IMG/VR virus record: IMGVR_UViG_3300023104_000007
Location: 1-41,927 of that record
From: a virus
Length of the DNA: 41,927 nt
Direction: 5' to 3' (one strand)
The position numbers and the translations under genes are program-made. A model generated the notes under the pieces. The model saw only the letters and a program-made list of their open reading frames with translations, did no database searches and was not told the origin of the DNA. Positions 8,441-17,242 of the stretch are shown here, piece after piece (positions within the stretch are counted from its first letter, which is position 1; every line of letters starts with the position of its first letter).

Positions 8441-8478
8441 GTGGGCAGGCCGTGGGGAGCGAATCAGACTGTGGGCAG
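8441..8478 (+). repeat. Right pair of GTGGGCA repeats (candidate integrase arm sites)
   Basis: GTGGGCAG occurs at 8441-8448 and again at 8471-8478, in the same orientation as the left pair. The second copy contains the GTG chosen as the integrase start, so integrase binding here could also repress its own gene. Inverted near-copies inside int (GTGCCCAC 8723-8730, CTGCCCAC 8751-8758) may be chance. Confidence 0.4.
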
Positions 8479-9616
8479 ATTGACGGTCAAGAAGGTCGAA
8501 TCGTTGACCGAGCCGGGGCGGTATTCCGATGATGACGGCTCCGGCTTTCACGTCCGCGTCACACCCGATGGCGGAAAATATTACGTCCTGCGCGCGACCA
8601 CGGGAGGCAAGCGCAAAGACATATCGATCGGATCGGCTAAGCGGATCACGCTGGGGGTTGCCCGTGAGAAGGCGCGCAAGCTGAGGGAGGAACTGGACGC
8701 TACCGGCGACATCGCGCTCCATGTGCCCACTTTCGCCGAGGCGGTCGTTTCTGCCCACAAGTCGCGCACGGCCGGGTTCAAGAACGAAAAGCATGTGGCG
8801 CAGTGGCGATCGACGCTCGAGACTTACGCGGTGCCGTCGATCGGCAGCAAGCCCGTGGACAAGGTGGAGCGTGGCGACGTGGTCCGTATCCTCGAGCCGA
8901 TATGGCTGACCAAGCCGGAAACCGCTGACCGGGTCTTGCAGCGCATCGATCGGGTAACGCGCTGGGCTGTCGGCCATGGATACAGGAAAGACCGGATCGA
9001 CACGGCGCTGGTGCGCGATGCCCTTCCGCCACGGAAGCGGCGCCGGGCCGATATCAAGCGGATGGCATCGGTCCCGTGGCAAGACGCGCCGGCATTCTGG
9101 GCGAGCATACCGCTCAGCCGCAGCGCCCCGCAGATCCGCCTTGGCCTTTCGCTGTTGATCCTCACAGCGGTTCGCCCCGGCAACATTGCTACCGCGCGGC
9201 GCTCTCAATTCGATCTGGATGGCGCGACCTGGATAATACCGGCCAGCGAGACGAAGACTGCCGAGGTGCTTAGGGTGCCGCTCTCTCAGCCAGCCATTCG
9301 CATAGCACGGGCGATGATGGCCGATAGCGACGAAGATCTGCTGTTCGCGGTGTATGGCGAGCAGATCAGCCCCGACACATTGCGCATGATGATGCGCCGC
9401 CTCAACCGGACTGAGACACCGCACGGCTTTCGCTCGACCTTCAAGGAGTGGTCGCGCGCTCATGGCTGGGCCGATCATCTGAGTGAGGCTGCCTTGGGTC
9501 ATGCCGATCCTAACGAGGTGCGCGCGGCTTATGCGAGGTCTGACCTTCTGGAGGAGCGCCGTCCGATGATGGCGGATTGGGCTTCATTCCTTGGAGGGTC
9601 AGGGACCACGCCATGA
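8471..9616 (+). CDS. int: Tyrosine recombinase integrase, P4-like
   Basis: The 381-aa product has the DUF4102-type N-terminal arm-binding domain (SDDDGSGFHVRVTPDGGKYY), a core-binding domain (about 85-185) and a catalytic domain. Catalytic residues visible are Arg235 (TAVRPGN), Lys262 (SETKTAEV), His318 and Arg321 (HGFRS), His344 (LGHAD) and Tyr354 (RAAYARS). GTG 8471 is preferred to GTG 8441 because it has GGGGAG upstream and gives a standard N-terminus (GRLTVKKVESL). It integrates the phage, probably into a tRNA-Ser gene judging from the adjacent attP. Its 3' end overlaps the convergent excisionase-like gene by 107 bases. Confidence 0.92.
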   Translation: MGRLTVKKVESLTEPGRYSDDDGSGFHVRVTPDGGKYYVLRATTGGKRKDISIGSAKRITLGVAREKARKLREELDATGDIALHVPTFAEAVVSAHKSRTAGFKNEKHVAQWRSTLETYAVPSIGSKPVDKVERGDVVRILEPIWLTKPETADRVLQRIDRVTRWAVGHGYRKDRIDTALVRDALPPRKRRRADIKRMASVPWQDAPAFWASIPLSRSAPQIRLGLSLLILTAVRPGNIATARRSQFDLDGATWIIPASETKTAEVLRVPLSQPAIRIARAMMADSDEDLLFAVYGEQISPDTLRMMMRRLNRTETPHGFRSTFKEWSRAHGWADHLSEAALGHADPNEVRAAYARSDLLEERRPMMADWASFLGGSGTTP

Positions 9617-9767
9617 GCGATTCGACCGGCACGAGGGTACGCCGGCCATGCTTGACCGCTCGCACGTCGCCAGAATTGAGCAGCTTGTAGAAGGATGCGC
9701 GGCATAGGCTGAGCATGCGCGCGCCATCTGCGACGCTCACCAAGATAGGCTCCATTTTCTCGCTCAC
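9510..9767 (-). CDS. xis: Excisionase-like helix-turn-helix protein
   Basis: The 85-aa product has a MerR/excisionase-type winged HTH in residues 1-55: MEPILVSVADGARMLSLCRA, SFYKLLNSGDVRAVKHGRRT, LVPVESLMAW. GTG 9767 overlaps the upstream stop (GTGA); ATG 9755 is an alternative. It is the last gene of the long leftward operon and runs antisense into the 3' end of int. Position and fold indicate a recombination directionality factor that bends attL/attR DNA and promotes excision. Confidence 0.78.
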   Translation of the reverse strand: MSEKMEPILVSVADGARMLSLCRASFYKLLNSGDVRAVKHGRRTLVPVESLMAWSLTLQGMKPNPPSSDGAPPEGQTSHKPRAPR

Positions 9768-10294
9768 TCGCCACCCCCATCCCGAGAGAGGGCTTGGGCG
9801 AGGATCATGGCCATCGTCGCCTTGGTCGAGTCCCACGAGATCGTGTGATCGACAGCCTCTTCGTCGCCGAACTCATCGTATCGGATGATGCGCTCTTTCA
9901 CCTCACCGATGTACGCCGCTTTAGTGTCCGCGCTCGGGGTCAGGGCGGCAATCAGCCGATCCCGCTCGGCCTCTGCTGCGGTGGCGCGGGCTTCGGCTGC
10001 GGTTAGCGCGTTCAAGGTGCAAACGTCCGCAGACGATGTCGCGCATACCCGGATGCTGCCGAGCAGAGCATCCCGCTCCCTCTCCGCCTCCGCCAGCGCC
10101 GCAGCGAGGGTTTCGATGGTGGTGGCGGCCCGGCGAACTTCTGTCTCGATGGCCTCAAACATGGCCATCAGCGCGACAGCCTTTGCCCGATCGGACCGAC
10201 CCGCCGCACGCAGCAGCCGCCATACCCCTATGTCGTCTGGTATCGCATCGGCGACTCCCCTCAGCCGCCCAACCAGCTCTGCGGTAGCGGTCAC
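9764..10294 (-). CDS. Coiled-coil early protein of unknown function
   Basis: GTG 10294 is chosen because it overlaps the upstream stop (GTGA) and AAAGGA lies 7-8 bases upstream; a longer GTG start at 10321 lacks this. The product is 176 aa, starting with ATAELVGRLRGVADA as in many small early phage proteins, followed by long Ala/Glu/Arg helices with coiled-coil character (about 45-115) and a C-terminal helical part. It is probably expressed with xis. Function unknown. Confidence 0.65.
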   Translation of the reverse strand: MTATAELVGRLRGVADAIPDDIGVWRLLRAAGRSDRAKAVALMAMFEAIETEVRRAATTIETLAAALAEAERERDALLGSIRVCATSSADVCTLNALTAAEARATAAEAERDRLIAALTPSADTKAAYIGEVKERIIRYDEFGDEEAVDHTISWDSTKATMAMILAQALSRDGGGE

Positions 10295-10770
10295 GACCAA
10301 TTCCTTTCGAGGCGCTGCCACATTGCTTCCGGAACGTGCGGGCGAATGACGGCGCGGAAATCGGGCTGCTCGGATTTGTACCGACGCCAGTGGTGTCCGC
10401 CGGGCGTCGCAGCTTCGACGTTGGCAATCCGATCCGCCAGCTTCACCAGCGCCGCCGGCGGATGCTCGGCTATGCGGCGATAGATGCAGGCGACACGATC
10501 GCGGCGTTCCTCACCCTCGCCAGTGCAGGCATAGACGATCCGCAGCACGTCTTCGCCGAACAGGTCCAAGATCTGATCGGACGTGGCGGCGGTATCCTCC
10601 AGCACGTCGTGCAGGAAGGCAGCCTTCCACTGCGCGTTCGTGCAACCGAAATCCCGTGCGACCGAGACAACGGCAAACAGGTGCACTCCGTAGGGCTCAC
10701 CACCGTAAAGCTGGTTTCCGTGCGCCTTGATCGCGAAGTCCCGCGCCTCCCAGATCTCCCCCGCGATCAC
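10291..10770 (-). CDS. SpoT/Mesh1-like HD-domain hydrolase
   Basis: The 159-aa product shows the hallmarks of single-domain (p)ppGpp hydrolases: AIKAHGNQLYGGEPYGVHL (His17, His30), AAFLHDVLEDT (His54-Asp55) and LVKLADRIANVEA (Asp113). These match the metal-binding H...HD...D set of the RelA/SpoT HD domain, and no synthetase domain is present. It would remove the 3'-pyrophosphate from alarmones or related nucleotides in the cytoplasm, perhaps to relieve stringent response or toxic small alarmone synthetases. The start is GTG overlapping the upstream stop (GTGA). Substrate is inferred. Confidence 0.82.
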   Translation of the reverse strand: MIAGEIWEARDFAIKAHGNQLYGGEPYGVHLFAVVSVARDFGCTNAQWKAAFLHDVLEDTAATSDQILDLFGEDVLRIVYACTGEGEERRDRVACIYRRIAEHPPAALVKLADRIANVEAATPGGHHWRRYKSEQPDFRAVIRPHVPEAMWQRLERNWS

Positions 10771-11246
10771 GCCTGACCCCCGGCGCGGGCGCGGATCTCA
10801 GCCCAACGCGCCTTTTCCGCTTCGGTACGGCGATACAGCACAGGCCGAGAGGGGTAGAGATCACCGTCAGCGGCGATCCACCATGATCCGTCTGGCCATT
10901 CCCCTTGGTAATGCGCCTTGTGAATGCCGGTGCTGCCCGCCTCGATCGCGTCGAACTCGCTGCCATCCTTTGGGCAATAGATCGGGTCGTTCCAGCCGAG
11001 TTGCTTGAGCCGATTGTAGGCAGCGTTCAGGATGCGAATGGCGTCCTGCTCGGTCGGCATCATGTCCGCGAAGAACGCATCGCGCGCGCCGAAAGCGTCA
11101 GTCGATCGGTTCCACTGCTCTTCGTTCACATGGGTGACGCCGCACTTGTGGCCAGCCGGAACGCTTTCAACAACAGCAGCGGTGCATGCCCGCTCAAGTT
11201 CATGGATGGCAGGCATAATCCGCCCCGCCAGTTCAAGCATCTGCAT
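10767..11246 (-). CDS. Hypothetical early protein (159 aa)
   Basis: ATG 11246 is chosen over GTG 11249 because AAGGA lies at good distance upstream. The product has an N-terminal helical region, a middle with DAFFADMMPTEQDAIRILNA, and a C-terminal region rich in Trp and aromatic residues (HYQGEWPDGSWWIAADGDLY). It contains few Cys and no clear catalytic motif. The initiation region duplicates that of the gene at 11580. Function unknown. Confidence 0.6.
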   Translation of the reverse strand: MQMLELAGRIMPAIHELERACTAAVVESVPAGHKCGVTHVNEEQWNRSTDAFGARDAFFADMMPTEQDAIRILNAAYNRLKQLGWNDPIYCPKDGSEFDAIEAGSTGIHKAHYQGEWPDGSWWIAADGDLYPSRPVLYRRTEAEKARWAEIRARAGGQA

Positions 11247-11580
11247 CACCGTTTCCTTCGATAAGCTGGAGCGATGCTGGCGGAGATGGGATGAAAGCGA
11301 CCGTCCACGCCTTCACAGCCGTAGCCGATCCGGGAATAGGATTGCCGGTGCCCCATAGCGTCCAGACGCGGGTGCCATCGGTGGCCCACACGACCGTGCC
11401 AGCCGGGGTTGGCTCGCTCGGTGGCCGCCAATCAGTCGCATTTGTCGGTACCATCTGAGCCGCCGGCCATGCGCGTTTCGCTGCTTCTATCTCAGCCTCG
11501 ATCGCTCGCGTTTCCTCGGCGACGTAGCGGAGCAATTCGACGGACCGGCGCGCTAGCTCGCGCATTCGTTCATCAAGCAT
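11233..11580 (-). CDS. Hypothetical early protein (115 aa)
   Basis: The start is ATG 11580 behind AAAGGAAACGGTG; GTG 11583 is in the same frame. The N-terminus is a charged helix (LDERMRELARRSVELLRYVA), then a Trp-rich beta-type region (VVWATDGTRVWTLWGTGNP). The C-terminus ends GNGDADA, echoing the GNGDA end of the next upstream protein. It overlaps both neighbours. Function unknown. Confidence 0.6.
   Translation of the reverse strand: MLDERMRELARRSVELLRYVAEETRAIEAEIEAAKRAWPAAQMVPTNATDWRPPSEPTPAGTVVWATDGTRVWTLWGTGNPIPGSATAVKAWTVAFIPSPPASLQLIEGNGDADA
11243..11258. repeat. 16-bp repeat at a gene junction, copy 1
   Basis: GCATCACCGTTTCCTT here is identical to 11577-11592. On the - strand it reads AAGGAAACGGTGATGC and supplies the ribosome binding site and start codon of one gene plus the last codons of the gene before it. 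Confidence 0.7.
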
Positions 11581-11788
11581 CACCGTTTCCTTTCAGGAGG
11601 TGGGCGAGTTCGTGGCCGCGCTGGGTGAAGACCGGATAGGCCACCCATGCCATACCAGTGCCCTCGACGCGTCGGACCAAGCCCTTGCGTTTCAGCGCGC
11701 GGCAAACGGCGAGACTTCCCTCGCCAGTTCGCATGCACGCACGTTGCTTTTCCGTCAGCCCCTCAGCGAGCGCGGTCAGGTCGGTCAT
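11573..11788 (-). CDS. Small protein, possible winged-helix (71 aa)
   Basis: The product has helices around LTEKQRACM and SLAVCRALKRKGLV, then a short beta part and VFTQRGHELAHLLK. This spacing resembles small winged-helix folds that read 'T..Q...L..L...GLV', but no family is certain. The start overlaps the stop of the upstream gene (ATGA). It is part of the leftward early operon. Confidence 0.6.
   Translation of the reverse strand: MTDLTALAEGLTEKQRACMRTGEGSLAVCRALKRKGLVRRVEGTGMAWVAYPVFTQRGHELAHLLKGNGDA
11577..11592. repeat. 16-bp repeat at a gene junction, copy 2
   Basis: Identical to 11243-11258. The flanking context is also alike: both copies sit where an upstream gene encoding a GNGDA ending meets a GTGATG start. 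Confidence 0.7.
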
Positions 11789-12150
11789 GACACGGCTCCG
11801 ATGCGAGGCATGACACTCAGATCGATTTCGCCGATGTGGCCGGCGTGGATCAGCGTATAGGCACGGCGGCCATGGGGTTTATTGCCCGCGTCACCGTTCT
11901 GGCGGCATCGCCCGAACACGCCAGCCACCACCCCGACTATGGCTGCGACTAGTTCGTCAGGCTCGCTCGCACCCTCACGCCACGGGCAGGCGATCAGATC
12001 GATATCGCGGGCAAGCGAGCCATGGACTGCGATTGCATAGCCGCAACTTCGGGCAACCTCGCGGATCGGCGGCAGAAGCTCTTCAAGCGCTGTTGCGATG
12101 AACGATGCTTCGGCGCGGCGCAGGGCGGCGGCTTGGTATATCCCGCCCAT
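11785..12150 (-). CDS. Nucleotidyltransferase-like protein
   Basis: The 121-aa product carries AVHGSLARDIDLIACPW (residues about 41-57), matching the nucleotidyltransferase core Gly-Ser followed by Asp-x-Asp (Asp49, Asp51). A later HIGEIDLSVMP (about 108-118) could supply the third acidic strand. ATG 12150 has a strong GGGGAGGAA site. Stand-alone small NTase-fold proteins of this kind recur in phage early regions. Whether it transfers nucleotides, and to what, is unknown. Confidence 0.65.
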   Translation of the reverse strand: MGGIYQAAALRRAEASFIATALEELLPPIREVARSCGYAIAVHGSLARDIDLIACPWREGASEPDELVAAIVGVVAGVFGRCRQNGDAGNKPHGRRAYTLIHAGHIGEIDLSVMPRIGAVS

Positions 12151-12151
12151 C

Positions 12152-12196
12152 CTATTCCTCCCCGGCGATTGGGGCGGGAGGGGTGGCGCGGATCAT
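12152..12196 (-). CDS. Possible 14-aa micro-ORF between coupled genes
   Basis: ATG at 12196 overlaps the stop of the PAPS-reductase-like gene (ATGA), and the TAG at 12152 lies one base before the ATG of the next gene. The 14-codon frame exactly bridges the only gap in this part of the operon and may act by re-initiation to couple translation. It may equally be chance; the downstream gene has its own strong RBS. Confidence 0.25.
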   Translation of the reverse strand: MIRATPPAPIAGEE

Positions 12197-12987
12197 AGCC
12201 CGCACCAATTGTCTTCGCATGTCGCCGGCTCGGTATCGAGCGCCCTATCGAGCAGCGGATATTCGGGGACGCTGCCATTTGGCGGACGATACTTTCCGCG
12301 CTCGCTGTCGGCCCACCGCTTGACCTCGTGGATACCTTCGGCGCCGGCATACTTCGCCGGATTGAACATCGGCCGGCCAACCGCCGCCTCTAGGGCAGCG
12401 ACGCGCGCAATATCGGCAGCCGAAGCCCGACGCAGATCAGCGCGGTTGCTGTTGATGCAGATGGCGCATTCGTCCGATCTGTGGGGCAGAAGTTCCAGCG
12501 GCGTTTTCGCCACCATCCCGTCCCGGTCGGCGTCGGAGAAGTCAATCAGCGGGTGCCACACATGCCGGCCATTGTCCTTTTCTGGCATGAAGGCGGGGTG
12601 GCCGGAACGGGCGGCACTTTCAGCACGGCGGACCCCGACGCACACCAGCGCACGATGATCCGGGTCGTTTTCCGTGACCCACTTTAGGAAGGGGCGCACC
12701 TTCAGCTCCTGAGTGCAGAATTTGACCAGCCGCGTTGGAAACATGCCGGCCACCGTGTGATTAAGAACGGACGCTTCAAAGCCGATCGAGGCGAGCCGAA
12801 CGGCCTCCCAGCCCATGGATCGCACCCATGCTTCACCGACAGTGACGCGCGCGGCCCATGCGTCGGAAGACCAGCCGGTGTCCGAGTAAACGACCGACAC
12901 ATCCTTCAGCCCGTATTCGTGCATAAGCTGAAGCATGGCGATGCTGTCGTTACCGTAGGAGCAACGTGCAATGTATTTCGCCCCCAT
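12193..12987 (-). CDS. PAPS reductase / ATP-pyrophosphatase family protein
   Basis: The 264-aa product begins MGAKYIARCSYGNDSIAML, where SYGNDS (residues 10-15) takes the place of the SGGKDS PP-loop of adenylylating N-type ATP pyrophosphatases. KDVSVVYSDTGW, LVKFCTQELKVRPF and CVGVRRAES follow the PAPS reductase fold. A Cys pair lies in ECAICINSN (about 170-180), with a further Cys pair at the C-terminus. ATG 12987 overlaps the upstream stop and replaces a longer antisense-inflated start at 13044. Phage members are often linked to nucleic acid or metabolite modification; the substrate here is unknown. Confidence 0.78.
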   Translation of the reverse strand: MGAKYIARCSYGNDSIAMLQLMHEYGLKDVSVVYSDTGWSSDAWAARVTVGEAWVRSMGWEAVRLASIGFEASVLNHTVAGMFPTRLVKFCTQELKVRPFLKWVTENDPDHRALVCVGVRRAESAARSGHPAFMPEKDNGRHVWHPLIDFSDADRDGMVAKTPLELLPHRSDECAICINSNRADLRRASAADIARVAALEAAVGRPMFNPAKYAGAEGIHEVKRWADSERGKYRPPNGSVPEYPLLDRALDTEPATCEDNWCGL

Positions 12988-13847
12988 CACTTCGCGCCGT
13001 CGAGCTTGGCGAGGAGGGCGGCCTTGCGGACAGCGTCGCGCCATCTGCCCGGACTTAGGAAATCCATCGCTGAAATACCGAGCCGAGATGCCTGCTTACC
13101 CAAGTCCTCAGCGAACACGGCCTCCACCACCGCCCGGAATTCGGCCAGCACGTCGGGCGGGGAGAGGGCAAGGACGGCACTAGCGTAGTCTTGCGCTGCT
13201 ACATTCAAATCGCTGCTGATACCTTCTTGGGAAGGAAGTGCCGCTAAGGCGCCTTGCAAAAAGGCGGCCTCCAACCTCTTCGCCTCGTCCCCCGCTTCGG
13301 CGGTGGAGCGGAGGGGAGCTTTGCAATCGCAGGCGTCGCAACGCTCATCGCCGGCAGGATCGACGGGGCAACCCTCGGCCGAACAACCCGAACAGGTGTC
13401 GGCCCATGCTTGCCGGCCCACTTCGATCGCGCCACCACATTTGCCGCAACGCGTCTCCCCCGCCGCAATCGGCAGCGCGCGGAGGGAGGCTTCAAACGTC
13501 GACTTGGTCGCGCGCGCCATCTCTTCGATTTCATCCGGAGAGTAGCATGCTCTGGCCATGCAGCACGTCGCCAAGGCACTTGCCGCCTTCACGGCTTCCT
13601 TGAGATTGCGCAGTTCATCGACCCGAACCATGGTCAACTCGTTGCCGTCGCAATCCTCGCGACCGGCTGACCAATCATCCACACCCTCGCCGGGATGCTG
13701 AAGGGCGGCGAGGTGCTTGGCGTAATCTGCCAGTTGTCGGCAGTGCGCTTCGTTCGGCCATTCTTGATGCCAGCGTTTCCGCAGCCATTCCCTTGCGGCA
13801 ACAAATTCGGCATCCCGCGCCTGCTCAACAGCTACGGTGTCAGTCAT
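12987..13847 (-). CDS. Cys-rich early protein of unknown function
   Basis: ATG 13847 is chosen because AAGGAG sits about 7 bases upstream; ATG 13853 is too close to it. The 286-aa product has an acidic Trp-containing N-terminal part (REWLRKRWHQEWPNEAHC), then a central cysteine cluster (ETRCGKCGGAIEV, DTCSGCSAEGCPVD, ERCDACDC) likely to bind zinc, and a helical C-terminal part resembling phage proteins that describe 'DFLSPGRWRDAV'. It could be a modular adaptor. Function unknown. Confidence 0.6.
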   Translation of the reverse strand: MTDTVAVEQARDAEFVAAREWLRKRWHQEWPNEAHCRQLADYAKHLAALQHPGEGVDDWSAGREDCDGNELTMVRVDELRNLKEAVKAASALATCCMARACYSPDEIEEMARATKSTFEASLRALPIAAGETRCGKCGGAIEVGRQAWADTCSGCSAEGCPVDPAGDERCDACDCKAPLRSTAEAGDEAKRLEAAFLQGALAALPSQEGISSDLNVAAQDYASAVLALSPPDVLAEFRAVVEAVFAEDLGKQASRLGISAMDFLSPGRWRDAVRKAALLAKLDGAK

Positions 13848-13974
13848 GGTCATGCTCCTTGGGCGGCAAGGTGGGCTTGGGCAGCGGTGCACCGAGCACG
13901 AGGGCGATCGTGCGCTGCTGGAAGAGGACCTTGACCCGGTTGAGTTCGGAGAGGATTTGCTGATCGCCCTTCAC
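13840..13974 (-). CDS. Small protein (44 aa), coupled
   Basis: GTG 13974 overlaps the upstream stop (GTGA) and the TGA (13842-13840) falls just inside the next gene. The product starts with a helix (KGDQQILSELNRVKVLFQQR), then a hydrophobic patch (TIALVLGAPLP), and ends Pro-rich with an acidic/His tail. It fills an otherwise empty slot in the operon. Function unknown. Confidence 0.55.
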   Translation of the reverse strand: MKGDQQILSELNRVKVLFQQRTIALVLGAPLPKPTLPPKEHDHD

Positions 13975-14333
13975 CGCCCCGTCTCCGCTTTGGCGAGGGC
14001 GGTGGCGACGAGTGCTTCGACTTGGCGGTTTGCAGCGGTCAAGGCTTCGGTGATCCGGCGTGATCTCTCGTCTTCAGCCGCGCGCTTGCGCCGCCGAAAT
14101 TCGCCATCGACACCAGCGATGCTGTCACGCACCCACTCGGCTGTTTCCTTTTCAGCGAACGAAGCGACGACGCTCAGCCTGTAGCACTGCTTCGGCCAAA
14201 ACTCAGACTTGAACTTGACGAGGGAAGTCGTGAGCTTCTCGACCTGAGCCACTCTCACCACGACCTTTTCATCCAATCGATACAGCACCCATTCGCCAGG
14301 CTTGGGCTCCCGCCCCTGCGTCTCTGCGGTCAT
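13971..14333 (-). CDS. Hypothetical early protein (120 aa)
   Basis: The N-terminal half looks like a small beta-barrel (GEWVLYRLDEKVVVRVAQVE, FKSEFWPKQCYRLSVVASF) and the C-terminal half is a charged helix with many Arg/Glu (RRRKRAAEDERSRRITEAL). The start overlaps the stop of the recombination-linked gene upstream (ATGA), which may hint at a shared role in DNA metabolism. Function unknown. Confidence 0.6.
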   Translation of the reverse strand: MTAETQGREPKPGEWVLYRLDEKVVVRVAQVEKLTTSLVKFKSEFWPKQCYRLSVVASFAEKETAEWVRDSIAGVDGEFRRRKRAAEDERSRRITEALTAANRQVEALVATALAKAETGR

Positions 14334-15358
14334 TGGGCGGGGCTCAGTTCGAGCTTGCGGGCGGTGGCTGCGTTGCGGACGCGCTTGCCGTCTGCGCCGT
14401 AGCTGTCGATCTGGTCAGCCTTGACGGTCATGAGGCCGTCGATCAGGTCGGGGTCGGTCAGCGCTTCGATTTGGGCGATGAGGGTATCAGCCGTCTCTTC
14501 GCTACCGATTGCCTGCTCCAGAGCGTCCAGCTTGCCGCCAGTCGGGCCGGCGCCATCGATGCGCGGAAACTCTTCGTCACCGCTGATCTCGTTGCGCCGT
14601 ATGCTGTTGTAGCTGATCTGCAGGTTCGCCAGATCGACCGCGGTGAAATTCGCCGTCGCGCCCAACTTGGCCTCGATGCGCCGCTTGTCGATGCCGAGCT
14701 TGGCGAATGCCGTCAGGGCGTCGGCGATGCGCTTCGGTAGCGGCACCTCCGCGTTGCGCGTCTCCAGCGTGTTGCGGCACTCTTCGGACGCGGCCTGCAC
14801 CAGATACTTCGGCAGGACCGCAAAGATGCACTCGCGCAGCCGGCGCGCGCCCATGTTGGCGTTGTTCTCGTAGATGTCGCGAACGTCCGTCAGCCGCTCC
14901 GCGCCGCCGCGCTTGTCGCGCAGATGGGGCACGATGAAAGTCAGGCTTGCGCGGGCGTTCGTTTCCAGATCCCAGGCGCGGGCGAGCATTTCCGAATGGC
15001 CAGCCTCGTCGTCGCGGTTCAGTTCCGAAATGGTGTAATCGATATTGCCCCAGCACCGAGCGAGTTCGCGGGCGAGGTGGATCGTCTCGCCGCTGACCGA
15101 CTGGCCGCCACGCGGGAACTTGAAGAATGCGCTCTCGGCAACCTCGCGGGTGCGGCATGACTCCAGCGCCTCGTTCAGCGCGTTCGCCTTGTCGCGCGGG
15201 CGGTTAGCGGCGACTATCAGCGCGCCTTGCACCTCTGCGACGGCGCGGGACTGCTCGACCGTCGTTGCCTGCGACTTGCTGACACCGCGCGCATTGGCGG
15301 CTGATCCGAGAATATCGGCGGCGTTGCGCGGGCGCGTCTCAACTACTTGGCTAGCCAT
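14330..15358 (-). CDS. Phage recombination-module protein, possible ssDNA-annealing protein
   Basis: The 342-aa product belongs to a widespread phage group I recognise by pattern: EQSRAVAEVQGALIVAANRP, then SCRTREVAESAFFKFPRGG, ARELARCWGNIDYTISEL, and DVRDIYENNANMGARRLREC. Residues about 30-230 form the conserved part; the C-terminus is variable and acidic. It lies directly downstream of a DEDDh exonuclease and a YqaJ nuclease, the usual slot for a single-strand annealing protein working with a 5'-3' exonuclease. The annealing role is inferred from this context, not from a diagnostic motif. Confidence 0.6.
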   Translation of the reverse strand: MASQVVETRPRNAADILGSAANARGVSKSQATTVEQSRAVAEVQGALIVAANRPRDKANALNEALESCRTREVAESAFFKFPRGGQSVSGETIHLARELARCWGNIDYTISELNRDDEAGHSEMLARAWDLETNARASLTFIVPHLRDKRGGAERLTDVRDIYENNANMGARRLRECIFAVLPKYLVQAASEECRNTLETRNAEVPLPKRIADALTAFAKLGIDKRRIEAKLGATANFTAVDLANLQISYNSIRRNEISGDEEFPRIDGAGPTGGKLDALEQAIGSEETADTLIAQIEALTDPDLIDGLMTVKADQIDSYGADGKRVRNAATARKLELSPAQ

Positions 15359-15360
15359 CG

Positions 15361-15942
15361 TTATTGCTCCAGGGTCTTGAGGTGAAGATAGACGCGGCGG
15401 CAGGCGGCGACGTCGATTAGGGCATCATGTGCGCCGTCCAGATCCTCATTGAAGAAGTGGCGGATGCACTCTTCGAGCTTGGGCGGCTTCGGCTTGTTGA
15501 ACCCGGCTGCCAGCATCCGTTCGGTCGGCGGCAGGTTCACGATCGGGGTTGCCGCCTCCATCGTGCAGAACATTGGCTTGGTCATCACGCGCATCGCGCC
15601 ATGCCGGCGGGCTATCGCGGCTTCCATGATGCCCTTGTCGAACTTGATGTTGTGCGCGACCGTGGTGTCAGCCAGCCGGTACATGTGGCCGAAAATATCG
15701 ATCGCCATGGACGGCTCGACGCCGCGCGCCGCCGCGATCTCGGTCGTGATCCGATGCACATTGGATGCTTGCAGCGGGATCGGCACGTTGTTGTTGATGA
15801 CGAGCGAAATGCTCATCACCTCTGCGCCATCGTCTTCGCACAGCATCGCCGCCAACTGGACGAGATGAGGTTGCCCAGGATGATCGACGGGTAGCCGTTC
15901 CTGAAAGAAGCCGGTCGTCTCGGTATCGAAAAAGAGGATCAT
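15361..15942 (-). CDS. DnaQ-like DEDDh 3'-5' exonuclease
   Basis: The 193-aa product shows all DEDDh motifs: FFDTETTG (Asp6, Glu8), HNIKFD (Asp102) and AHDALIDVAACRRVY (His172, Asp177); VHRIT (62-66) is also typical. It should cleave DNA or RNA from 3' ends using two metal ions. It is stand-alone, without a polymerase, and lies between the YqaJ nuclease and the putative annealing protein, so it may trim recombination intermediates. It overlaps the upstream stop by ATGA. Confidence 0.85.
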   Translation of the reverse strand: MILFFDTETTGFFQERLPVDHPGQPHLVQLAAMLCEDDGAEVMSISLVINNNVPIPLQASNVHRITTEIAAARGVEPSMAIDIFGHMYRLADTTVAHNIKFDKGIMEAAIARRHGAMRVMTKPMFCTMEAATPIVNLPPTERMLAAGFNKPKPPKLEECIRHFFNEDLDGAHDALIDVAACRRVYLHLKTLEQ

Positions 15943-16835
15943 GCCGCTTCTTTCACGCTGAAGCGCCGGTACGGCTTGCGGGTGACCGTATAGGTCGAGC
16001 CCTTCACCGTTGACGCTGTGAGATAAAACCCTTCGAGCTTGGCGCCATCGGCATCGCCCAAGCGCTCCAGCAGTTCGGCCTTGGCGGCTTCCTCATCTGC
16101 CTCAGCAGCCTTCCGGCGCTCCTTGGCTTCGAGATATTCCGCCGCCGCGATCGTGCCGCGGTTCCAGCGAGACAGGTCGATCAGGCCGCCGCCGCCTTCC
16201 GCGTAGACCTCGGAAATAACCGAGCCGTCGCGGCGATAGTCGGGCTTGGGAGCATCGCCGGCGGCGACACGCTGCCAGAACAGATCAACCCGCTTTTCGA
16301 TGTCGGCATAGATCGCCGGCCGGAAATCGTACTGGAAGCGGCGCAACTCGTTACCGCCAACCAGAACGATCATGTCGCCCCAGACGCAGCCCGCGAGCCC
16401 CTGATAGGTCATGTTCTGCAGGAGGTAGGCCAGCGGTGGCTCATCGCCCCACTTCTTCACCTCCAGCCAATCGACCATCTTGCATTCCAGCACGCCGCGC
16501 CCGCGCTCTGGGCACATGACGATTTGGTCGGGGTGGCCGCCAAGCTTGCGCCCGTTGTCGAGCCGCAGCGCTTCGCCGGTCGGGATGTACCCCCACCGTT
16601 CGCGCGCGCCTTCGAGGATAAGGGGCTCGAGCTTGACGCCCCAATAGGCTCGCTCGTTTTCCGGGACTCCCTCGTTGACCGCGTTGAAGGCTGGCGTAGC
16701 GATGCGGCCGATCTTGCGCTGATAGAGCTCGTATTCGGTCAGCCAAGGGCTGCACTGGAACAGCGCCGCCACCTCGGAAGCGCCGACCACGGAAGCGCGG
16801 AATGCAGCATCGGAGAGGTTTGCTGGCGCGTTCAT
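15939..16835 (-). CDS. YqaJ-family recombination exonuclease
   Basis: ATG 16835 has GGAG upstream and gives a 298-aa protein. Motifs of the lambda-exonuclease/YqaJ fold are clear: VVGASEVAALFQCSPW (16-31), GVKLEPLI (Glu70), GGHPDQIV (Asp103) and VLECKM (Glu117-Cys-Lys119), the PD-(D/E)xK core. A helical C-terminal region (about 225-275) with charged repeats follows. It is expected to resect dsDNA ends to feed strand annealing, with the two following genes as likely partners. Confidence 0.88.
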   Translation of the reverse strand: MNAPANLSDAAFRASVVGASEVAALFQCSPWLTEYELYQRKIGRIATPAFNAVNEGVPENERAYWGVKLEPLILEGARERWGYIPTGEALRLDNGRKLGGHPDQIVMCPERGRGVLECKMVDWLEVKKWGDEPPLAYLLQNMTYQGLAGCVWGDMIVLVGGNELRRFQYDFRPAIYADIEKRVDLFWQRVAAGDAPKPDYRRDGSVISEVYAEGGGGLIDLSRWNRGTIAAAEYLEAKERRKAAEADEEAAKAELLERLGDADGAKLEGFYLTASTVKGSTYTVTRKPYRRFSVKEAA

Positions 16836-17242
16836 CGCCCGCTCTCCAGTTGGCCTGCAGCGTCCTCGGCCACGCTGGCAGGCTGGTTGTTGGGAAGGTC
16901 CGAGGCGCTCGCGGCGGGGGTGGACGCGGGCGGGAAGCAAAGAGGAGCCTTGGTTCGCAATGGCAGAGAATTGCAGGCACCCTCGTTAGCTGCCTCAGTT
17001 TCGTGGCTTGGGTTCGTGGCGCCACATTTGCCGTTGCGGCCTGCACCATACAGGTCCGATAGGCGCCCAGGTCGGCGCCGAAATATCAGCGGCCGCGCGA
17101 GCCGGCGCGCGAGATGTCGATCATCAAATACTTCAAGATATTGGCCGCAGCCATCTAACCACCGTTGCTCATTGACGTTCTCCTTGTTGCACACATGTGC
17201 CTGTTGACTGCCTGTAGGCAGAAACTCGTTGAAGCCGTTCAC
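16832..17242 (-). CDS. Hypothetical protein (136 aa), low confidence
   Basis: GTG 17242 overlaps the stop of the upstream gene (GTGA) and is preceded by GGAGG; the stop overlaps the YqaJ start (ATGA). The sequence is low in order: a Cys-containing start, a basic middle (RHLARRLARPLIFRRRPGRL) and an Ala/Pro/Ser C-terminus. The couplings at both ends support translation, but composition is unlike its neighbours. A strong internal AAGGAG before an ATG (near 17174) leads only to a five-codon frame. Function unknown. Confidence 0.45.
   Translation of the reverse strand: MNGFNEFLPTGSQQAHVCNKENVNEQRWLDGCGQYLEVFDDRHLARRLARPLIFRRRPGRLSDLYGAGRNGKCGATNPSHETEAANEGACNSLPLRTKAPLCFPPASTPAASASDLPNNQPASVAEDAAGQLESGR

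Follow-up and report, generated by a model that had tools for sequence, protein, structure and literature searches.

Gene cassettes encoding a predicted orphan alarmone hydrolase and two further enzyme-like proteins in a P22-like temperate phage

The virus record IMGVR_UViG_3300023104_000007 (41,927 bases, the whole stretch analysed; hereafter, the window) represents a temperate P22-like phage and encodes, in one minus-strand gene run, a SpoT-type HD hydrolase, a nucleotidyltransferase (NTase)-fold protein and a PAPS-reductase-like protein. Comparison with homologous loci indicated that the three genes are independent cassettes of an accessory-gene array in the left run of the phage, which would have been built by single-gene exchange at short conserved junctions. 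The hydrolase probably detoxifies the products of alarmone synthetases. We hold this reading as a whole, i.e., the array, the detoxifying hydrolase and the assignments of the other two proteins, with moderate confidence.

Independent cassettes at short gene junctions

The initial annotation had grouped the three genes (10291-12987) as a joint nucleotide-handling set, which could serve counter-defence or nucleic-acid modification. This grouping was not borne out by their distribution. The hydrolases of four related records (L010, L011, L012 and L013) are 97, 92, 76 and 76% identical to that of the window, and neither the NTase nor the PAPS-like gene was detected anywhere on these records, which may be fragments. 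The closest PAPS-like homologue (86%, L031) has no hydrolase nearby and no NTase on its record. A scan for the NTase family gave 228 viral loci, and a PAPS neighbour was found in 2 of 88 NTase loci; among the other hydrolase loci, one had a PAPS neighbour and none had an NTase neighbour. What recurred beside NTase and PAPS family genes was only generic replication and recombination genes, plus methyltransferases in the PAPS case. When seven proteins of the stretch were searched with PADLOC, the sole match was a weak one of the PAPS-like protein to SspD/BrxP/DndC, a similarity that can be due to the common fold; the other six, including the hydrolase and the NTase, had none, and no partner of Dnd/Ssp phosphorothioation was recognised among them. 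Nothing in the analysis pointed directly to DNA modification or to a connection with CBASS. A single pathway in which the three enzymes modify nucleic acid or counter cyclic-nucleotide defence would agree with their adjacency within one run and with the SspD/BrxP/DndC similarity, but the genes do not co-travel in close relatives or in ~200 homologous loci, and their slots hold unrelated genes in relatives. We regard such a pathway as extremely improbable, and it was discarded on the lack of co-travel.

At the DNA level, the window is unrelated to L010 and L011 inside most genes and near-identical to them over 22-52 bp at gene ends. These junction blocks lie at the hp120 start and stop, hp301 stop/PAPS start, PAPS stop/NTase start, NTase stop/hp71 start, hp71/hp116 and hp116/hp160 (Table 1). 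Among the short blocks, 7/12 and 6/13 touched a gene end, where chance would give 1.4 and 1.5 (p = 0.0003 and 0.0026). An unrelated 159-aa open reading frame (ORF) takes the place of the NTase in L010, between the same two junctions, and a protein 90% identical to hp160 precedes the hydrolase in L011, whereas L010 has a different 236-aa ORF instead. An exact 16-bp repeat frames hp116 in the window and is present as one copy in L010 and L011, both of which lack hp116; by this comparison hp116 is a one-gene cassette insertion.

One of the two models published for phage mosaicism invokes homologous recombination at short conserved boundary sequences (PMC3233612), and the locus resembles a case of this kind. 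The exchange pattern is visible in the comparison itself, and recombination would be the event behind it. Judged from their distribution and these alignments, the hydrolase, NTase and PAPS-like genes are independent cassettes, and they make a clear case of adjoining 'nucleotide' genes that resemble a pathway yet are swapped at short gene junctions.

The layout given in the initial annotation was recovered by ORFs, profiles and structure matches: the three ORFs lie where it had placed them on the minus strand, in the same order, with three small proteins (hp71, hp116 and hp160) between the NTase and the hydrolase and none between the PAPS-like protein and the NTase. Its identification of a SpoT-type HD hydrolase, an NTase-like protein and a PAPS-reductase/ATP-pyrophosphatase-like protein was also right, with active-site residues kept in all three, and by sequence homology these identities far exceed chance. 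The run is ordered RecE-like exonuclease (15939-16940), a relative of a polymerase exonuclease subunit (15361-15942), a 342-aa gene, hp120, hp301, PAPS-like, NTase-like, hp71, hp116, hp160, HD hydrolase and hp185, towards a tyrosine integrase (8441-9616). Its genes are tightly packed, overlapping by 1-31 bp or separated by gaps of 2-78 bp; the label 'early operon' is suggested by the recombination genes in the run. A P22-type portal, a capsid protein, a primase-helicase and a terminase are encoded as well.

Other features of the run were also recorded. The hp301 gene is itself mosaic: unrelated sequence alternates in it with short blocks that are 94-100% identical to L010/L011. An ORF that by eye resembles a phage adenine methyltransferase (MSHWETAGASDEWYTPAFVFEALGERFDLDVASP...) precedes the hp301 homologue at L010:2607-3101 and L011:3697-4191 and is missing from the window. 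The 342-aa protein (14330-15358) matches PHROG 3657 at 3e-93. A DNA search for close phage relatives yielded just its gene, the principal region of the window with nucleotide-level matches in named phages (Gordonia, Rhodococcus and Streptomyces), where it is partly annotated as a ssDNA-binding protein.

Table 1 Genes, junction blocks and repeat copies of the cassette array in the window.
Feature	Position	Strand	Basis or remark
hp185, last gene of run	9764..10321	-	
Orphan small alarmone hydrolase (predicted), single HD domain, 159 aa	10291..10770	-	HD_4, PHROG 990, spoT_relA, catalytic residues
hp160	10767..11249	-	comparison with L010/L011
hp116, inserted cassette between 16-bp repeat copies	11233..11583	-	comparison with L010/L011
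16-bp junction repeat, right copy, GCATCACCGTTTCCTT	11243..11258	+	exact; 0 expected by chance
hp71	11573..11788	-	ends conserved in L010/L011, variable middle
16-bp junction repeat, left copy, GCATCACCGTTTCCTT	11577..11592	+	0 expected by chance
Junction block, NTase stop / hp71 start	11752..11790	.	97% to L010, 100% to L011
Minimal nucleotidyltransferase-fold protein, 121 aa, PHROG 35913/31354	11785..12150	-	AlphaFold, Foldseek, invariant residues
Junction block, PAPS stop / NTase start	12148..12190	.	81% to L010, there ahead of unrelated 159-aa ORF
PAPS-reductase-fold / N-type ATP-pyrophosphatase-like protein, 264 aa, PHROG 424	12193..12987	-	PF01507, fold, SxGxDS, cysteines
Junction block, hp301 stop / PAPS start	12981..13022	.	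88% to L011, there ahead of 70-aa ORF
hp301	12987..13892	-	internally mosaic vs L010/L011

The orphan hydrolase and its likely role

The hydrolase matched Pfam HD_4 (2.1e-11, above cut-off), PHROG 990 (1e-30) and NCBIfam spoT_relA (5.8e-16), the last as a fragment covering the N-terminal part of the model only. Its solved-structure relatives are SpoT, Rel and MESH1, with long-RSH hydrolase domains matching best. Alignment with RelSeq and PaSpo, the hydrolase of phage SSU5, revealed the HDxxED motif and equivalents of RelSeq H53, H77, D78, E81, D82, D144 and N148, all present, and a short loop ahead of the second conserved His (QLYGG) without the Arg at RelSeq position 44. With its stand-alone HD domain and intact catalytic site, the protein classifies by sequence as a small alarmone hydrolase (SAH). 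Neither the window record, searched at E up to 10, nor any of 22 further phage records with such a hydrolase gave a RelA_SpoT synthetase domain (PF04607), so within this set of phages the hydrolase is an orphan; with no adjoining synthetase, it does not classify as part of a toxin-antitoxin module of the toxic small alarmone synthetase (toxSAS) type.

In the phylogeny, the window hydrolase falls in a clade of five close phage sequences (100/99). PaSpo and phiKZ form a separate supported clade (100/99) that excludes it, which places it outside the PaSpo subgroup; the long Rel enzymes also stand apart (100/99), and the tree leaves its deeper position open. With this locus, the known phage alarmone hydrolases gain an orphan lineage distinct from PaSpo, a candidate counter to toxSAS defence.

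That phage HD hydrolases can neutralise toxic synthetases, as the initial annotation stated, is published for PaSpo, which strips the tRNA modification made by the toxSAS FaRel2 (PMC11559606) and has been co-expressed to tame CapRel (PMC9712102). A relative of the window hydrolase with a shared loop (36% identity), encoded in an Apibacter contig (L207), comes two genes after the domain of a synthetase toxin, for which the matches were SaSAS (1.4e-19) and, at a weak level, Tas1. Mannheimia and Pasteurella phages have the gene order MuF-synthetase, small gene, hydrolase, the same as the published order Apk2-IapK-Aph1 (PMC12226406). Because relatives adjoin synthetases and the activity of PaSpo is published, detoxification of 3'-pyrophosphorylated products is the most economical reading. 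Made during infection or lysogeny, the hydrolase would cleave the 3'-pyrophosphate off what toxic small alarmone synthetases produce: tRNA pyrophosphorylated at its 3'-CCA end, (p)ppApp or both, and possibly (p)ppGpp. Its removal would rescue translation or ATP and so weaken abortive defence of the CapRel/FaRel type or the effect of an alarmone-synthetase toxin entering the cell. By analogy with PaSpo and with the relatives beside synthetase toxins, an anti-toxSAS effect is most likely.

The substrate cannot be read from the sequence, and family membership is what points to a detoxifying role. RelSeq acts on G only, SAHMex on A only and Mesh1 on both (PMC7644958). Arg44 of RelSeq is also missing in the (p)ppApp hydrolase 7smg and in PaSAH (6yvc, so identified in PMC10434055). 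PaSAH is termed (p)ppApp-specific in PMC12691689, and a reference title in PMC10434055 reports that it degrades both purine alarmones. Loss of Arg44 had been considered as a sign of adenosine substrates and was dropped; since PaSAH likewise lacks this residue and reportedly takes both, the base loop does not settle base preference.

Two other roles were weighed against detoxification of toxSAS products. The hydrolase could lower host (p)ppGpp and so keep transcription and translation high in starved cells, in infection or lysogeny, apart from any defence. Its best solved matches to long-RSH hydrolase domains would fit, and a reprogramming of (p)ppGpp signalling has been suggested for phage SAHs (PMC12846349); however, hydrolase relatives adjoin toxic synthetases and the Arg44 loop position is lost (not decisive, given PaSAH and its similar loop), and we consider this role unlikely. 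It could also be a lysogeny-borne immunity protein against (p)ppApp-synthetase toxins from rival phages (MuF-Apk2) or secretion systems. Aph1-type phage hydrolases are immunity genes adjoining MuF toxins, universal immunity through hydrolysis has been published (PMC12226406) and the Apibacter gene context is of the same kind, but the window record contains no toxin gene (no RelA_SpoT domain) and its hydrolase gene sits in a recombination-gene run, away from the head genes, which leaves lysogen immunity rather doubtful.

Several points weigh against a cassette array with a toxSAS-detoxifying hydrolase. The hydrolase lies outside the supported PaSpo clade, so the PaSpo substrate range is not simply transferable, and its QLYGG base loop is without RelSeq Arg44. 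As a viral contig, the record gives neither a host nor host defences against which the role could be read. The gene-end test rests on two close relatives, with blocks picked by BLAST at E 1e-3.

The Apibacter muscae contig was also inspected in its own right. A synthetase-type polymorphic toxin end, an 82-aa gene and the hydrolase (L207:5425-6845) form a candidate toxin-immunity locus there, and copies of the N-terminal leader of the toxin at 2521 and 3821 suggest more alternative toxin ends.

The NTase-fold and PAPS-reductase-like proteins

The AlphaFold model of the NTase-fold protein (pLDDT 93.6) matched polymerases beta/mu in Foldseek with probability 1.0. In a second structural comparison SpoT synthetase, PolX, TUTases and cGAS tied at Z ~8, a tie that supports the NTase superfamily for this 121-aa protein but no specific function. 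The motif HG(S/T)-x3-DxD and a later D are conserved in 75 viral sequences, with H43, G44, D49, D51, W57, R95 and D110 invariant, and the family core is ~105 aa with no partner domain. Given hG[GS], DxD, the third carboxylate and the modelled fold, the protein belongs to the pol-beta NTase superfamily. All 63 homologues matched PHROG 35913 and 31354, both without assigned function. No Pfam NTase family matched any of them or the window protein, which is thus not assigned by Pfam to NTP_transf_2 or the minimal NTase (MNT) antitoxins; a limited literature search found no description of the family.

Its residues and predicted fold suggest that the protein is probably a catalytically active nucleotide transferase. 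A non-catalytic inhibitor or antitoxin-like protein would suit the very small size and the missing partner domain, but the invariance of the D49, D51 and D110 carboxylates and of G44 across 75 diverse viral sequences fits catalysis, and we think a non-catalytic role improbable. A tentative possibility is that this widespread phage family transfers a nucleotide onto a host molecule (tRNA, protein side chain or signalling nucleotide) for takeover or counter-defence, which, if true, would be an activity not described for any phage protein so small. The family, common in phages and with an invariant active site but no assigned function, is the least-known part of the locus.

A toxin-antitoxin pair of the NTase, as synthetase, and the hydrolase was considered as well, as the NTase model resembles SpoT synthetase (Z 8.3; PolX 8.1) and the model of a phage Tas1. 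It was rejected on the pol-beta DxD/D type of the residues and on the count of 0 other hydrolase loci with an NTase neighbour.

The PAPS-like protein matched PF01507 (5.1e-7, above cut-off), and its family profile matched CysH (4e-12) and, more weakly, Cap9, QueC, GMP synthase and TtuA. Its AlphaFold model (pLDDT 87.1) matched CysH and PAPS/APS reductases at Z 12.8-14.8, and PHROG 424 places it among phage accessory genes. The CysH fold is present and the CysH-type substrate loop (SSFG) is not: at this position (SSFGIQ in the aligned CysH) the phage family has an invariant SxGxDS. Five cysteines (C91, C174, C177, C257 and C262) are each retained in 76-80 of 84 sequences, a range that becomes 76-82 when SxGxDS is counted with them; the C257/C262 pair falls in a low-confidence region of the model. 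Because SxGxDS replaces SSFG and the cysteines are conserved, an ATP-using sulfur or thiolation enzyme is favoured over a true PAPS reductase; residues and modelled fold make thiolation or sulfur transfer, with ATP and a cysteine cluster, its probable activity. The hydrolase and PAPS-like genes are of known kinds, and the NTase family is the open question of the locus.

Comparison with known systems

PaSpo of Salmonella phage SSU5 shares with the window hydrolase a single HD domain, the metal and catalytic residues, a phage-borne gene and no synthetase in the same phage. It differs in its loop (RKYTG vs QLYGG) and tree clade, and aligns over 86% of the window protein at 31.5% identity. The Aph1/(p)ppApp hydrolases of MuF-Apk2 prophages (7smg family) are likewise HD hydrolases of temperate phages without RelSeq Arg44, but their genes follow those of a synthetase toxin and an inhibitor, whereas the window has no toxin. 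The closest named phage relatives, phiCbK gp169 and its counterparts in Caulobacter (phiCbK-like) and Nodularia phages (43-46% identity), have the QxYG loop and the KLADRIAN motif. These are uncharacterised proteins of 139-230 kb phage genomes, and a term search of the phiCbK genome paper found no discussion of its hydrolase.

The window NTase resembles the pol beta/X and RelA/SpoT synthetase folds in fold and in its pol-beta-type three-carboxylate site, and departs from them in its small core, its three-residue GS-to-DxD spacing and its lack of a Pfam family. The PAPS-like protein has the fold and RxxESxxR core of CysH and the N-type ATP pyrophosphatases (TtuA, TilS and DndC), and differs in its loop, SxGxDS in place of the SSFG of CysH, and in its five conserved cysteines. 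The arrangement as a whole is like the boundary sequences of mosaic phages (PMC3233612), with short conserved DNA between exchanged genes; to these it adds a new instance and an exact 16-bp junction duplicate around one gene.

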